A DNA stretch of 64,000 nt from positions 496,001 to 560,000 of the forward strand of contig NZ_RAPQ01000009.1 of the NCBI RefSeq assembly GCF_003610555.1, written 5' to 3'. A program made the position numbers and the translations under genes. The notes beneath the pieces are model-generated. The model was not told where the DNA came from, ran no database searches, and worked only from the letters and a program-made list of their open reading frames with translations. Positions 21,395 to 27,474 of the stretch are shown here, one piece after another. Position 1 is the first letter of the stretch, and each line of letters begins with the position of its first letter. The DNA comes from Marinifilum flexuosum. GTDB taxonomy: Bacteria; Bacteroidota; Bacteroidia; Bacteroidales; Marinifilaceae.

Positions 21395-22219
21395 CTATCC
21401 CGGGAATTTCGGGAACTTTTGGAATTCAGGGTCGCGCTTCTCCAAGAATGCATTCTTTCCTTCCTGCGCTTCTTCCATTAGGTAATACATCATGGTAGCA
21501 TCACCTGCAAACTCCATTAATCCGCGCTGTCCGTCTAACTCTGCGTTCAAACCACGCTTGATCATACGAATAGCCATAGGGCTGCGCATCATGATGGTCT
21601 TACACCACTCTACAGTTTCGTCTTCCAATCTTTCCAAAGGCACTACGGTGTTTACCATACCCATGTCTTCAGCTTCTTTGGCAGTGTACTGCTTACAAAG
21701 GAACCAGATCTCACGAGCTTTCTTCTGGCCTACGTGGCGAGCCAAATAGTTCGAACCAAAACCAGCATCGAAACTACCAACCTTAGGACCAGTCTGACCG
21801 AATTTTGCATTTTCAGAAGCGATAGTCAAGTCACAAACCACGTGAAGTACGTGTCCGCCACCAATAGCATAACCGTTCACCATGGCAATTACAGGCTTCG
21901 GCATAGAACGGATTGCCTTGTGCAAATCCAATACATTCAAACGAGGCACACCGTGCTCATCGATGTATCCACCAACACCTTTTACATTCTGATCACCACC
22001 TGAACAGAAAGCCTTGTCGCCAGTTCCTGTCAACACAATTACACCAATATCGCTGCGCTCGCGGCAGATATCCATAGCATCCAACATATCGAAGTTGGTT
22101 TGCGGACGGAATGCATTGTACACCTCAGGACGATTGATGGTGATTTTTGCGATTCCTTCGAAAAATTCGAATTTAATATCTTCGTATTCCTTAATGGTAG
22201 TCCAGTTTCTAGTTGTCAT
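21395..22219 (-). CDS. menB: 1,4-Dihydroxy-2-naphthoyl-CoA synthase
   Basis: This 274-residue crotonase-fold enzyme closes the second ring of the naphthoquinone. MenB-type features are [14 protein letters not shown] (oxyanion loop), [15 protein letters not shown], the [18 protein letters not shown] segment and the C-terminal [17 protein letters not shown]. Its ATG overlaps the menD stop as ATGA, so the pair is translationally coupled. It is the last gene of the menI-menF-menD-menB operon. Confidence 0.97.
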
Positions 22220-23913
22220 ACCTTCTCTTTTATAGTTTTAAAATAATTTATTAGCACTTGATCGTTTATCGTTCGTGGGGTTTTAATCTCCAGAACGGCA
22301 GCTCTTTCGTTTGCTGCATAGAATTCAGGCAGTACGTTTTCTACCTCTGTTTCATTTTCGGCGTAAAAGTAATCCAATCCGTAGGTTTCTGCCAGTTTAT
22401 CGGCACGGTATTCCTGTACTGTCTCAAAATATTCTTCCAACTCATCCACACCCGATGGACCGGATATGAATCGGAAAATTCCTCCTCCTCCATTGTTGAT
22501 GAGAATGATTTTCAGATTTGGCTGCAGGTATTTGTTCCACAATCCATTCGAATCATAGAAAAAGCTGATATCTCCTGTAATCAGCGTAGTAGTTCTGCCA
22601 TTCACCAAGGCAGCTCCTGCCGCTGTTGATGTACAGCCATCTATTCCACTGGTTCCTCGGTTTGAGTTATAAGTAATTTGATCGGATGTCTTGAACAATT
22701 GAGCATATCGCACCACCGATGAGTTTGCCAACTGTAGGTTTCCCCCTTCCGGGATAGCTTCCAAAATCTTCTCGAAAGCTTTCATATCACTCCATTGCAG
22801 TTTATCCAGGTATGTCTCATGAATTTTGCCTACTGCTGCATCCCTCTCTTTCCAAAGATTTGCATATCCACTTTGGGTATGATTCAATGCTGGCAACAAC
22901 TGACGGAAAAATGCCAGTGGAGACACATCAATGTGAGAAGTCAGATTCTTGAACGTATCAATAAAATGATCCTCTTTGCCTACAAACCAATGCTCCTTTG
23001 GACGATAATCACGCAAGAAAGATTTGATCATTTTGGACACCAATGGCCCACCAAAATTGATCAACAAATCAGGCTGAAACTCCTTTTTCTCCTCCTCTTT
23101 CACCGAGCAGATTACCCTGTCGATACAAGGCAAGAACTCTTCTCCATGCAAATTGGCAACCGATTCGGTCATTACCGCCACATTTGGCTTTTGGGCCAAT
23201 TGCATCAGCAATTCATTCAGTTCTGGCTGTTGGTGCAGCAAGCCTGCCAATATCAATATCTTTTTGTTCGAATTAAAAGCCTGAGCCAAGTCTTCAACAC
23301 TTTCTTTGCTCAATTCATCCACCGAACTCACTTTACGGATTACCCTTTCATCGGTATCAGGATATTGTTTTACCCCATACAAAGGTTCACGCAAAGGGAA
23401 ATTGATATGAACCGGTCCCATTCTACCCGATTGCGCTTTCGTTAAGGCCTCGTTAGCCATGCGATTCAAATACCAGCAATCATCAGGATTATTGGCATCT
23501 AATGGCAATTGGTAGCTGTCTTTCACAAAACCTTTGAAAACATCAGGCTGTGGAATGGCCTGGCTATCATCCTGACCGATCCATTCCGTAGGGCGATCGG
23601 CCGAGATTACCACCAAAGGCAATCGTTGATAGAAAGCCTCGGCAACAGCAGGTCCGTAATTCAACAGCGCCGTTCCCGATGTACAAACCAAACCCACGGG
23701 TTTTCTGGTTTGTTGTGCAATCCCCAAGGCAAAATAAGCGGCACTGCGCTCATCCACAATCACCAAACTTTTAATTCGCTGATCTTTTGCAAAAGAGATG
23801 CTTAGCGGAGCATTTCTGGAACCTGGCGATACGATAACATATTCCATTCCTTTGGCCCAACAGATATCAATCAATTCTTTCACTCCTTTGATATCTGAAT
23901 AATTGCGCTCCAT
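22216..23913 (-). CDS. menD: SEPHCHC synthase
   Basis: This thiamine-diphosphate enzyme joins isochorismate and 2-oxoglutarate. Numbered from the ATG chosen here ([10 protein letters not shown]), it has 565 residues: the N-terminal SPGSRNAPL loop, the conserved Glu region [12 protein letters not shown], and the ThDP motif [14 protein letters not shown] near residue 430-445. An in-frame ATG 16 codons upstream (23961) is possible, but its extra residues (MNSEFTSTIEKENTKY) lack MenD character. Operon position: after menF (about 100-150 bases) and overlapping menB by four bases. Confidence 0.95.
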
Positions 23914-23984
23914 GTATTTTGTATTTTCTTTTTCTATTGTAGAAGTAAATTCTGAATTCATATTTAAGCTTTTAGCTTTCAGAC

Positions 23985-24040
23985 AAAATACTTTGTACTT
24001 TCTCCTTGATACTTTGTACTTGAAAGTTTTGCCTTTCGCA
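23985..24040. repeat. Doubled phrase ATACTTTGTACTT between menF and menD
   Basis: ATACTTTGTACTT occurs twice about 20 bases apart in the only sizeable gap of the operon. It is another example of the self-repeating filler phrases seen at 11129 and 12915. Confidence 0.45.
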
Positions 24041-24063
24041 ATCCAAATTTAAAACAAATTCGC

Positions 24064-25167
24064 TTATTTAATCACTTTAAGCAAAGTTTGCGCTTTAAAA
24101 CAGGTTTCCATCCATTCTTTTTCAGGATCAGAATCAGCAGTGATTCCTCCACCTACAAATAGTGCCATACTTTCCTGAAGCACCTTCATACTTCTCAAAT
24201 TCACAAACAAAGCCAAACCGCCATCAGCATGAATAGGGCCTAAAAATCCAGCATAATACTCTCTCTTATGTTTCTCCACTTTTCGGATTAAATCCATTGC
24301 CTTATTTTTTGGCAAGCCACAAACCGCTGGTGTTGGGTGCAAGGCTTGGGCAAAACTGGAGATCTGATCGAAACTTAATGCTGTGTTTGCTTTATAGGTA
24401 GTTTTTAAATGAACAACATTACCCGCTTGTACTGTAAAAGGACCTTGCTTCTGATAATCATCAATCTGATAATTGGAAAGAAGCTCTTCGATATATTTAC
24501 TCACGTATGCTTGCTCTTCTATCTCTTTTTTCTCCCATTCAACAGATTGAACCGCTCTATCACCTAGTTGCTGTGTTCCCGCTAAGGCTACTGTTTCTAT
24601 TGTTTTCCCATCAGAATTCAGGAATTTCTCCGGGCTAGCACCAATCCACAACCCTACTCCTGGTATATCTACCATGGAAACAAATGCATTAGGATAAGTT
24701 TCTTTCAATCGAAGAAAAATTGATGTTGCATCTTTACGTCCTTTGCCATTCAACACATGCACTCTGGAAAGAATCACTTTATCAAGCTTTTTACTCTTTA
24801 AATCGGCAAGCATTTCATTGATTTGTTCCAGATAATCCTCTTTCGAACTTTCATAAACTTCCGAATCCTCATCAATCTGATCAGGTAAGCCTGAAAAATC
24901 AAAAAACTCTGTTGAATTTGAGCTAAACTCGAATTCTGGATCTATGAAATAAGAAGCTTGTTCTGTGTCTATATCAAAAGGTGCAAATAAAAAACCTTCC
25001 TTCCCTTTCAAATCCAATAAATTGGTAAACTTAGATGGACTTGTTTGAATTCCGATTTTGATTTCTTGATCTCCTGGCAAAGAATATGCGTAAAACGAAA
25101 GTCGTTTTTTTATGCACTGCTCAAGAAAATATTGTGTTGATTTTTCTTTGTCCTCCAATTGGCTCAT
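24064..25167 (-). CDS. menF: Isochorismate synthase
   Basis: This 367-residue chorismate-binding enzyme starts the menaquinone branch by turning chorismate into isochorismate. The signature chorismate-binding core is visible: DKVILSRVHVL, the SPEKFLNSDGKTIETVALAGTQ stretch, LHPTPAVCGLPKNKA, and the final motif EYYAGFLGP...LFVNLRSM. It begins 3 bases after the menI stop and is followed by menD. Confidence 0.95.
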   Translation of the reverse strand: MSQLEDKEKSTQYFLEQCIKKRLSFYAYSLPGDQEIKIGIQTSPSKFTNLLDLKGKEGFLFAPFDIDTEQASYFIDPEFEFSSNSTEFFDFSGLPDQIDEDSEVYESSKEDYLEQINEMLADLKSKKLDKVILSRVHVLNGKGRKDATSIFLRLKETYPNAFVSMVDIPGVGLWIGASPEKFLNSDGKTIETVALAGTQQLGDRAVQSVEWEKKEIEEQAYVSKYIEELLSNYQIDDYQKQGPFTVQAGNVVHLKTTYKANTALSFDQISSFAQALHPTPAVCGLPKNKAMDLIRKVEKHKREYYAGFLGPIHADGGLALFVNLRSMKVLQESMALFVGGGITADSDPEKEWMETCFKAQTLLKVIK

Positions 25168-25170
25168 TCT

Positions 25171-25587
25171 CTATTTTTTAATGATCACATTGGTTATTCG
25201 ACAAATCGACACCAGTTTTTCTTGTTCATTTAGCACATTCACCTCAACAATATGAGTCATTTTGCCTTTGTGAACAAACTTGGCTTTGGCAATAATTTTT
25301 CCCTTTCGCAGGCTTCTGATATGATTGGCATTAATCTCCATCCCCTTTACATCGTAGTTTTTCAAATCTGTATGAATTACTGAAAGTGCACTTCCAACAG
25401 ATTCCGCCAATGCCAGAGTAGCTCCTCCATGCAATATCTTCATGGGTTGCCAATGGTTTGAAGTCACCTCCATCTCAGCCACCAAATAATCCTCACCTAC
25501 TTCTGTATATATAATTCCCAAATGCTCCATTAAAGTTTCGGAGCACATCTTATTCAAACTTTCTAATGCCTCAGTATTTTTAATCAT
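25171..25587 (-). CDS. menI: Hotdog-fold thioesterase, probable DHNA-CoA thioesterase
   Basis: This 138-residue hotdog-fold protein carries the PaaI/MenI motif KILHGGATLALAESVGSAL, with the catalytic acidic residue in ALAES. As first gene of an operon with menF, menD and menB it most likely releases CoA from DHNA-CoA before prenylation by MenA. A perfect TAnnTTTG box (TATTTTTG, 25599-25592 on the minus strand) ends four bases ahead of the ATG, so the message may be leaderless. Confidence 0.9.
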   Translation of the reverse strand: MIKNTEALESLNKMCSETLMEHLGIIYTEVGEDYLVAEMEVTSNHWQPMKILHGGATLALAESVGSALSVIHTDLKNYDVKGMEINANHIRSLRKGKIIAKAKFVHKGKMTHIVEVNVLNEQEKLVSICRITNVIIKK

Positions 25588-25696: not shown

Positions 25697-25888
25697 TTAG
25701 TCAATTTTTACATTAACTGCATTTAATCCTTTTTTTCCTTCTACAACATCGTAAGTTACGTTATCACCTTGGTCAACTTTGTCGATCAAACCTGTAACAT
25801 GAACAAAAATGTCTTCTTGTGTTTCATTGTTTTTAATAAAACCAAAACCTTTAGTTTCATTAAAGAATTTTACTGTACCTGTAGGCAT
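25697..25888 (-). CDS. Cold-shock domain protein
   Basis: This 63-residue single cold-shock domain has both RNA-binding motifs: KGFGFI (RNP1) and DIFVHV (RNP2). It starts MPTGTVKFFNETKGFGFI, typical of CspA-like proteins, and is of usual length. It binds single-stranded nucleic acid and acts as an RNA chaperone. The leader of about 54 bases contains a 7-bp hairpin, a possible temperature- or self-regulated element. The gene is divergent from the asnA attenuator region. Confidence 0.95.
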   Translation of the reverse strand: MPTGTVKFFNETKGFGFIKNNETQEDIFVHVTGLIDKVDQGDNVTYDVVEGKKGLNAVNVKID

Positions 25889-26092: not shown

Positions 26093-26123
26093 TTTGGTAG
26101 TTTAAATTTTAATCCTACATTTG
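26093..26123 (+). promoter_or_regulatory. Promoter of the asnA leader
   Basis: TTTG at 26093-26096 and a perfect -7 box TACATTTG at 26116-26123 lie 19 bases apart. The predicted transcript start near 26129 is about 15 bases before the first leader-peptide ATG, which excludes the longer upstream reading frame as the translated form. Confidence 0.7.
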
Positions 26124-26143: not shown

Positions 26144-26218
26144 ATGAGACAATTCAACAACAATAATAACTTCTTTAATAATTTGATGAATAATTCATCA
26201 GAACTGGGAAGGCTATAG
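26144..26218 (+). CDS. Asn-rich leader peptide 1 of the asnA attenuator
   Basis: A 24-codon frame starting MRQFNNNNNFFNN and ending SSELGRL contains nine Asn codons (five in a row at codons 5-9, two at 12-13, two at 16-17). It ends at TAG 26216-26218. The last codons contain TGGGAAGGCT, which can pair with AGCCTTCCCA of the terminator just downstream. If Asn-tRNA is scarce the ribosome stalls on the Asn run and this segment stays free to form the antiterminator; if translation reaches the stop, the segment is covered and the terminator forms. A longer in-frame start at 26003 lies upstream of the promoter and is rejected. Confidence 0.8.
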   Translation: MRQFNNNNNFFNNLMNNSSELGRL

Positions 26219-26244
26219 TTGTTATCGAAAAAATATTTTACACG

Positions 26245-26273
26245 AGCCTTCCCAAATTGGGAAGGCTTTTTTA
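26245..26273 (+). terminator. Attenuator terminator 1
   Basis: AGCCTTCCC (26245-26253) pairs with GGGAAGGCT (26259-26267) around AAATT, followed by TTTTT. The 5' arm can alternatively pair with the end of leader 1 (26205-26214), giving a 10-bp antiterminator. Confidence 0.85.
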
Positions 26274-26283
26274 TTTATAACAA

Positions 26284-26337
26284 ATGGTACAATTTTTCAA
26301 CAATAATAATAACAATAATAATTCTCCCCCAAGGTGA
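26284..26337 (+). CDS. Asn-rich leader peptide 2 of the asnA attenuator
   Basis: A 17-codon frame reading MVQFF, then eight consecutive Asn codons, then SPPR and TGA (26335-26337). It starts like leader 1 (M-x-Q-F), which suggests that the two attenuators came from a duplication. GGTGAGGAAG (26333-26342), which spans the stop codon, can pair with CTTTCTCACC (26369-26378) of the second terminator with one G-T pair. The logic is the same as for leader 1, so the two act in series. Confidence 0.8.
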   Translation: MVQFFNNNNNNNNSPPR

Positions 26338-26364
26338 GGAAGTAGCATTGTTATACCATATTAC

Positions 26365-26397
26365 AAGCCTTTCTCACCACAGAGAAAGGCTTTTTTA
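26365..26397 (+). terminator. Attenuator terminator 2
   Basis: AAGCCTTTCTC (26365-26375) pairs with GAGAAAGGCTT (26382-26392) around ACCACA and is followed by TTTT. It ends about 40 bases before the asnA ATG. Confidence 0.85.
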
Positions 26398-26436: not shown

Positions 26437-27474
26437 ATGAAAAACTTAATTATTCCTAAGGCTTACAAAAGCATCTTATGTCCTGATGCAACTGAAAAAG
26501 CAATTAAATTTATTAAAGATCAGTTTCAACTTCAACTCTCATCGGAACTGAAACTACGTAGAGTTACAGCACCAATGATTGTATTGAAGGGTACTGGTTT
26601 GAACGATGATTTGAACGGTATTGAGCGACCTGTAGCATTTCCAATTAAAGGCTTGGGAGAACAAACTGCAGAGGTAGTTCACTCCTTGGCAAAATGGAAA
26701 AGATACATGCTTGGTGAACTTCAAATTCCTGTAGGTAAAGGACTTTATACCGATATGAACGCCCTTCGTCCTGATGAAGATTTCACCAACCTTCATTCAA
26801 TTTATGTAGATCAATGGGATTGGGAAAAATCAATCAGTAAAGAAGAGCGAAGCATTGACTACTTGATTAGAACCGTAAAGCAAGTTTATGCATCCATTAA
26901 AAGAACAGAGTACATTTTAAGTGAATACTACCCAGCTTTAAGTCCTCAATTGCCTGAGAAAATTACTTTCATTCACTCGGAAGAATTATTGGAAAAGTAT
27001 CCTGACTTAACTCCTAAAGAAAGAGAAACTGAAGCTGTGAAAGAATTTGGAGCAATCTTTATTATTGGTATTGGAGGAGAATTGAAAAACGGAGAACCAC
27101 ATGATGGTCGCGCTCCTGACTATGATGATTGGACTACTCCTTCGGTTAACGGATATAAAGGCTTAAACGGAGATATTATTCTTTGGAACCCTGTTCTTGA
27201 ACAAGCTTTTGAGATCTCATCAATGGGAGTTCGAGTAGATGAAAAAGCATTGCAGGAACAGCTTGAATTAAAAGGAGAAGAAAAACGCAAAGAGTTAATG
27301 TTCCACAAAAAGTTGCTTGCTGGTGAATTGCCTTATTCAGTGGGTGGAGGAATTGGTCAATCACGTTTGTGTATGTTTTTACTACGTAAGGCTCACATTG
27401 GTGAAGTTCAATCAAGTATCTGGCCAGATGAACTGAGAGATACTTGTAAAAAAGCAGGAATTATATTCTTGTAA
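26437..27474 (+). CDS. asnA: Aspartate-ammonia ligase (ammonia-dependent asparagine synthetase)
   Basis: This 345-residue AsnA is of normal family length. It makes asparagine from aspartate, ammonia and ATP in the cytoplasm and resembles class II aminoacyl-tRNA synthetases in fold. Visible landmarks are the VDQWDWEK segment, the RTVKQVYASIKRTE helix, FIIGIGGEL, DDWTT and the motif-3-like GGGIGQSRLCMFLL. Expression is probably controlled by the two Asn attenuators in its leader, which fits the product of the enzyme. It is transcribed alone. Confidence 0.97.
   Translation: MKNLIIPKAYKSILCPDATEKAIKFIKDQFQLQLSSELKLRRVTAPMIVLKGTGLNDDLNGIERPVAFPIKGLGEQTAEVVHSLAKWKRYMLGELQIPVGKGLYTDMNALRPDEDFTNLHSIYVDQWDWEKSISKEERSIDYLIRTVKQVYASIKRTEYILSEYYPALSPQLPEKITFIHSEELLEKYPDLTPKERETEAVKEFGAIFIIGIGGELKNGEPHDGRAPDYDDWTTPSVNGYKGLNGDIILWNPVLEQAFEISSMGVRVDEKALQEQLELKGEEKRKELMFHKKLLAGELPYSVGGGIGQSRLCMFLLRKAHIGEVQSSIWPDELRDTCKKAGIIFL

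Follow-up and report, generated by a model that had tools for sequence, protein, structure and literature searches.

Upstream of asnA in Marinifilum flexuosum, two short reading frames rich in Asn codons follow one another, each succeeded by an intrinsic terminator (Table 1). The question raised by this locus, which we examined in its window (64,000 nucleotides, the whole stretch of DNA that was analysed) and in related genomes, is whether the gene is controlled twice by the same signal, through two attenuators in series, or whether one or both units have another role. Re-reading of the frames returned the Asn codons on which the original prediction was built (9 of 24 in leader 1, and 8 in a row of 17 in leader 2), and the claim that each terminator has a 5' arm able to pair with the RNA at the leader stop held, with 2:3 duplexes of -19.9 kcal/mol (gate 1) and -19.0 kcal/mol (gate 2) for which none of 300 shuffles each was as good. 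The antiterminator strand had been placed at the stop codon, where a finishing ribosome would cover it; this is its position in both gates, the gate 1 strand ending just before the stop and the gate 2 strand covering it, and in gate 2 the terminator loop (CACC) adds further pairing inside the antiterminator. A promoter had been predicted 15 bases ahead of the first ATG: the box is there, but it ends 20 bases ahead.

Table 1. Features of the asnA leader region (positions of the window) and the paired leaders of two further operons (positions of the own genome)
Feature	Position	Strand	Details
Promoter-like element, TTTG - 19 bp - TACATTTG, Bacteroidota type	26093..26123	+	19-bp spacing kept, box with one mismatch at most, in 18 of 21 loci
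Parts of the promoter-like element	TTTG 26093-26096; TACATTTG 26116-26123	+	
Leader peptide 1	ATG 26144 to TAG 26218	+	24 aa, 9 Asn codons, MRQFNNNNNFFNNLMNNSSELGRL
Gate 1 hairpin 1:2, within leader 1 frame	26170..26211	+	CUUCUU..GAUGAA pairs with UUCAUC..GGGAAG
Gate 1 antiterminator strand (segment 2)	26205..26214	+	TGGGAAGGCT; 3' end just ahead of stop codon
Terminator 1 (segments 3:4), then T run	26244..26268	+	intrinsic, -17.8 kcal/mol
Gate 1 terminator 5' arm partner	26245-26254	+	AGCCTTCCCA; pairs with TGGGAAGGCT
Leader peptide 2	ATG 26284 to TGA 26337	+	17 aa, 8 consecutive Asn codons, MVQFFNNNNNNNNSPPR
Gate 2 antiterminator strand	26333..26342	+	GGTGAGGAAG; spans leader 2 stop codon
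Terminator 2, then T run	26365..26392	+	intrinsic, -16.1 kcal/mol
Gate 2 terminator 5' arm partner	26369-26378	+	CTTTCTCACC; pairs with GGTGAGGAAG
asnA, aspartate-ammonia ligase, putatively controlled gene	26437..27474	+	Pfam AsnA PF03590, 345.6 bits vs. cut-off 27
ilvD double leaders (L249-L269)	G000:C1:1253843-1254263		
Aromatic double leaders (L279-L296 and L235-L239)	G000:C8 about 88565-88896		

The 313 bases from the promoter-like box to asnA hold both leaders and both terminators. In a 601-base region, we identified three terminator-like sites, compared to a mean of 0.1 in shuffles; two of these are terminators 1 and 2, and the third lies on the minus strand. The fold z-scores are -5.24 for gate 1 and -5.15 for gate 2, with 0 of 200 shuffles equally stable. 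Scanning the leader region against Rfam, T-box included, yielded 23 matches up to an E value of 10, none of which reached its own gathering score (the best, Phe_leader, scored 31.6 bits vs. 55) and none of which was a T-box. Runs of six AAY codons occur at only two places in the 5.17 Mb genome, leader 2 and a long (AAC)n repeat (G000:C1:1416607-1416714). On the minus strand, opposite asnA, the window carries a menaquinone-like gene set at 21395-25587 (Pfam ECH_1, TPP_enzyme and Chorismate_bind), presumably MenB, MenD and isochorismate synthase, and a cold-shock-domain frame (Pfam CSD) at 25697-25888.

Homologues of asnA were found in 29 of the 56 genomes of the family and, with a 31-residue fragment (L029) left out, 28 loci were compared. 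Both leaders and both terminators are present in the same order in all 21 loci of six genera (g1, g2, g10, g11, g12 and g14), among which AsnA identities go down to 78% and the spacing from terminator 1 to the second ATG is 13-26 bases. Five of the 28 loci, from the more distant genera g5 and g13 (L024-L028), have one Asn leader, and the two loci of genus g15 have none. The single leader is found about 420 bases ahead of asnA in L024 and holds five scattered Asn codons in L028; L025 belongs to Odoribacter splanchnicus, which NCBI assigns to Odoribacteraceae, order Bacteroidales. An automatic recount found two gates in 19 of the 21 loci, the first leader of both L011 and L012 having escaped it owing to an N-rich stretch in frame ahead of the ATG; the one-gate locus L027 was missed too, since its frame starts only at TTG. 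Across the order, asnA matched in 158 of 393 genomes, from which we inspected 29 loci of other families, together with the best 80 of at least 592 further loci, from named genomes whose family was not established; an Asn leader with a terminator within 600 bases of asnA was found in 0 of these 109 loci, two of which have fewer than 300 bases of upstream sequence.

The conservation of leader frames and Asn runs anticipated by the original prediction is thus present in 21 of 21 loci, with 7-9 Asn in 24-25 codons of leader 1 and 6-9 Asn in 14-19 codons of leader 2 (the frame of L005 being cut at the usual stop position). Five alignment columns of leader 1 hold an Asn codon in every one of the 21 loci. 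Exchange between AAC and AAT is seen in 3 of 7 (leader 1) and 4 of 8 (leader 2) Asn-majority columns, which contain 2 and 11 distinct non-Asn codons, respectively; the peptides drift between relatives, and the Asn codons and the arms are held. In leader 2 of L005, an extra base takes the frame beyond the usual stop and into the terminator arm, which may be an assembly error given that this genome is an 80%-complete assembly.

Pairing between leader and terminator is likewise widespread. Antiterminator duplexes fall in the best 5% of 300 shuffles in 39 of 42 cases (gate 1, 20/21; gate 2, 19/21), the exceptions being gate 1 of L009 and gate 2 of L010 and L020, and their energies range from -9.6 to -19.9 kcal/mol in gate 1 and from -9.1 to -19.9 kcal/mol in gate 2. 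At most loci, the gate 1 duplex ends at the stop, and the gate 2 duplex spans the stop and uses the terminator loop; in L017-L021, the leader 2 stop comes slightly earlier than elsewhere. In consensus structures, which were derived from the very alignments scored, 99.0% (gate 1) and 96.5% (gate 2) of the cells are paired, compared to at most 73.5% and 70.6% in slid controls; for gate 1 helices 1 and 2, the values are 99.0% and 97.9%, with two pairs changed on both sides. The original prediction called for covarying stems: the stems are conserved, but covariation is modest, with three pairs changed on both sides per gate alignment (one slid gate 2 control reaches four), because the arms hardly vary. 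Support for the stems in these alignments thus comes from conservation more than from covariation.

To relate these structures to the position of a ribosome, RNA up to 13 bases beyond the first A-site base was masked, and upstream pairing of the terminator 5' arm was scored before the 3' arm emerges. The predicted median pairing across the 21 loci falls from 0.75 in gate 1 and 0.85 in gate 2, when the ribosome is on the Asn codons, to 0.01 and 0.10 when it is on the stop codon, although the gate 2 antiterminators of L019 and L021 remain at 0.39 and 0.31. The fold model thus predicts an antiterminator that cannot coexist with the terminator and that a ribosome at the stop would prevent. Once the full terminator is out, it is favoured over the antiterminator even with the ribosome on the Asn codons, at all 21 loci for gate 1 and at about 12 of 21 for gate 2, so that antitermination would have to be kinetic. 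According to the same model, the gate would also open for a ribosome stalled at the majority of earlier codons, and the abundance of Asn codons would be what makes it specific. In trp, an untranslated leader terminates. The model does not reproduce such termination, given that the medians predicted for RNA free of ribosomes are 0.75 and 0.82 (above 0.5 in 18/21 loci for gate 1 and 15/21 for gate 2); the 1:2 hairpins have a helix that is present and conserved, yet too weak in the fold model to block the antiterminator when no ribosome is present.

Allowing one mismatch, a Bacteroidota-type promoter-like box, TTTG-19-TAnnTTTG, is present in 18 of 21 loci and starts 24-30 bases ahead of leader 1; at the same stringency, no locus has one in the interval separating the gates or in front of asnA (0 of 21). 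L017 has matches farther upstream only, and no match was found in L018 and L019. At the level of motifs, this distribution would fit both gates lying on one transcript from one promoter. The genome also contains asnS (621.5 bits vs. a cut-off of 342.6), and with it the means to load free Asn onto tRNA.

The two serial Asn attenuator-like units are real and conserved, with leader frames rich in the codons of the regulated amino acid and an intrinsic terminator between leader frame and gene. These features, with the predicted alternation of antiterminator and terminator, support the original prediction of tandem ribosome-mediated Asn attenuation, and we consider it very probable that two such attenuators, both sensing asparaginyl-tRNA, act in series on one transcript before asnA. 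We infer that both leaders are translated and that read-through depends on Asn in the following way. When Asn-tRNA is ample, the ribosome would reach the leader stop and cover the antiterminator strand, whereupon the terminator would form and RNA polymerase would stop. When Asn-tRNA is scarce, the ribosome would wait in the Asn run, the antiterminator would form and the polymerase would pass gate 1; at gate 2, a ribosome on leader 2 would take the same decision again. Because only transcripts past both gates would reach asnA, the gates should combine multiplicatively in both basal read-through and induction ratio, with a steeper response.

Doubling extends further than the original prediction saw, to two more operons. 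Weak matches of the gate 1 model served as a route to other attenuators; 19 hits were inspected, of which 9 resemble, by eye, gene-end terminators. For ilvD (Pfam ILVD_EDD), 33 of the 56 family genomes matched and 30 loci were inspected; two Ile/Val/Leu leaders, each with a terminator, are present in 21 of 21 loci of the same six genera as for asnA. In the remaining nine loci, two leaders are accompanied by two terminators in L270 and L278 and by one scored terminator in L271 and L272; a single leader is present in L273 and L275-L277, and a terminator alone, at a stricter setting, in L274. Within the family, the double ilvD gate is thus found at most loci, not all. In the wider order, ilvD matched in 46 of 119 genomes, and the 28 new loci inspected (L309-L336) comprise 22 with one branched-chain leader and a terminator, 3 with a leader but no scored terminator and 3 with neither (one of these, L334, has zero upstream sequence). 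Two-unit ilvD leaders were found in 0 of these 28 loci, indicating that one ilvD gate is usual in the order and that two are seen only in the family. The ilvD leaders of one g14 genome (G050, L260) are letter-identical to those of a g2 genome (G008, L255) and unlike those of its congener (L267), possibly through contamination of an assembly.

For the aromatic operon, 35 of the 56 family genomes matched and 30 loci were inspected. Two Phe/Tyr/Trp leaders are present in 18 of 18 loci of g1, g10, g11, g12 and g14, and the other 12 loci have no such leader within 700 bases of the aminotransferase; in genus g2, a Phe/Tyr/Trp pair precedes the prephenate dehydratase gene pheA (Pfam PDT) in 5 of 5 loci. 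Antiterminator support is good for three of the four ilvD and aromatic gates, with at least 95% of 100 shuffles beaten in 18/21 loci (ilvD gate 2), 14/18 (aromatic gate 1) and 18/18 (aromatic gate 2), and weak for ilvD gate 1 (8/21). Single gates are found in the own genome before trpE (L230, minus strand; a Trp gate, MFGLNSKYWWWHNC...) and hisG (L340; a His gate, MKFIALHHRHHHFTYPQVS), and a single Thr/Ile leader precedes thrA in both g2 genomes inspected (L234 and L240). The occurrence of such leader attenuators, one or two per operon, at other amino-acid operons also favours attenuation at asnA. With asnA, ilvD and the aromatic operon doubled and trpE and hisG single, we lean towards the view that serial attenuation by the same amino acid is a general design of this lineage, which would provide multiplicative, switch-like control.

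How the pairs arose is less clear than the original prediction proposed, in which a common M-x-Q-F start pointed to duplication. That start is shared by only part of the own genus and is missing in other genera, and the reading of duplication as the likely origin was dropped, as likeness outside the control codons is equally high between gates of unrelated operons. In the own genome, the gate 1 model matches gate 2 with an E value of 2.8e-4, a match that is not specific because a g2 thrA attenuator scores better (7.8e-5). Whole-gate local alignments place the same-operon pairs on top (z = 7.2 for asnA, 7.9 for ilvD and 10.6 for the aromatic operon), with the matches falling within the runs of control codons; two pairs from different operons score too (z = 6.3 and 4.3). 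Outside the Asn run, the asnA gates are alike in 5 of 6 loci, where at most 1 of 300 shuffles is as good (14 of 300 in L009); in the corresponding controls, asnA gate 2 vs. ilvD gate 1 gives z = 7.1, ilvD gate 2 vs. aromatic gate 1 gives z = 7.0, and the aromatic pair itself only z = 1.0. The own-genome aromatic pair has a 20-base identical stretch in common, with the same codons. Judged from these alignments, duplication within each operon is possible, and convergence would be an alternative origin.

A single working gate, with the other a relic or a plain terminator lowering expression, appears improbable to us. Such an arrangement would account for a gate 2 without its stop position in L005, for the weak gate 2 terminator of L010 (-6.4 kcal/mol) and for the five relatives that manage with one Asn leader, but not for the retention of both leaders and terminators in all 21 loci at AsnA identities as low as 78%, for the 39 of 42 antiterminators that beat 95% of shuffles, or for the doubling seen again in two more operons. 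It is more improbable still that the gates take different inputs, gate 2 responding, for example, to general translation or another amino acid. The precedent is mgtCBR of Salmonella, where tandem attenuators respond to ATP and proline (in the relevant passages of PMC3641672), and Ser-Pro-Pro-like codons do stand at the end of leader 2 in 16 of 21 loci; however, leader 2 holds 6-9 Asn in all 21, L017-L021 retain at most one Pro codon, and the bases of the Ser-Pro-Pro-like codons serve a hairpin arm. We give very little credence to the frames being functional small proteins or reinitiation aids for asnA rather than parts of attenuators. In favour of this reading, short leader genes in Bacteroidetes are enriched 11-14 bases before genes (PMC4833913); against it, 99 bases, with terminator 2 in between, separate the end of leader 2 from asnA, and it is the Asn codons and arms that are kept, not the rest of the peptides. 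Chance can practically be dismissed: AAY runs are of low complexity and similar terminators stand at the ends of other genes in these genomes, but the fold z-scores, the conservation in 21 of 21 loci, the duplex shuffles and the one other place with six AAY codons in the genome all speak against AT-rich repeats beside ordinary terminators.

Two serial Asn-tRNA sensors thus remain the preferred reading of the asnA leader, and to our knowledge Asn would be without precedent as the controlling amino acid of a ribosome-mediated attenuator. Among the matches listed in the open-licence literature, titles and abstract openings named no Asn attenuator and no leader-peptide tandem for the same amino acid; the most relevant comparative paper, that of Lopatovskaya et al. 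(2010) on Bacteroidetes, may contain such leaders. The asnA leader is a candidate Asn-tRNA sensor in a phylum with only clues of leader attenuation in the literature searched. Three operons with two gates, beside others with one, provide a natural test of what the second gate gains, possibly a lower leak, a wider range or a steeper response, and the asnA of Odoribacter splanchnicus offers a one-gate counterpart for comparison.

The trpL and hisL leaders of Escherichia coli represent ribosome-mediated attenuation of the trp/his type. The asnA leader resembles them in a leader rich in the codons of the product, a mutually exclusive antiterminator and terminator and a biosynthetic gene downstream, and differs in its use of Asn as control, in its two complete units and in the read-through that the fold model predicts without a ribosome. 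Passages of PMC3641672 describe trp attenuation and, with mgtCBR, a known case of tandem leader-frame attenuators, where two translated short frames stand in series within one leader, as would be the case in asnA; according to the same passages, the mgtCBR signals differ from each other (ATP and proline) and its stem-loops are unlike intrinsic terminators, whereas in asnA both units share their control codons and each has an intrinsic terminator. For the same phylum, Bacteroidota, parts of PMC9723704 and PMC7366714 contain hints of attenuators ahead of amino-acid operons or of short frames resembling leaders, and the passages concerned name neither an Asn leader nor a tandem for one amino acid. 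Tandem T-boxes and same-ligand riboswitches are known and are expected to act like a digital system (in the part of PMC12452182 concerned); they share with asnA two sensor-plus-platform units of one specificity in series, but the sensor in asnA would be a translating ribosome rather than an RNA aptamer.
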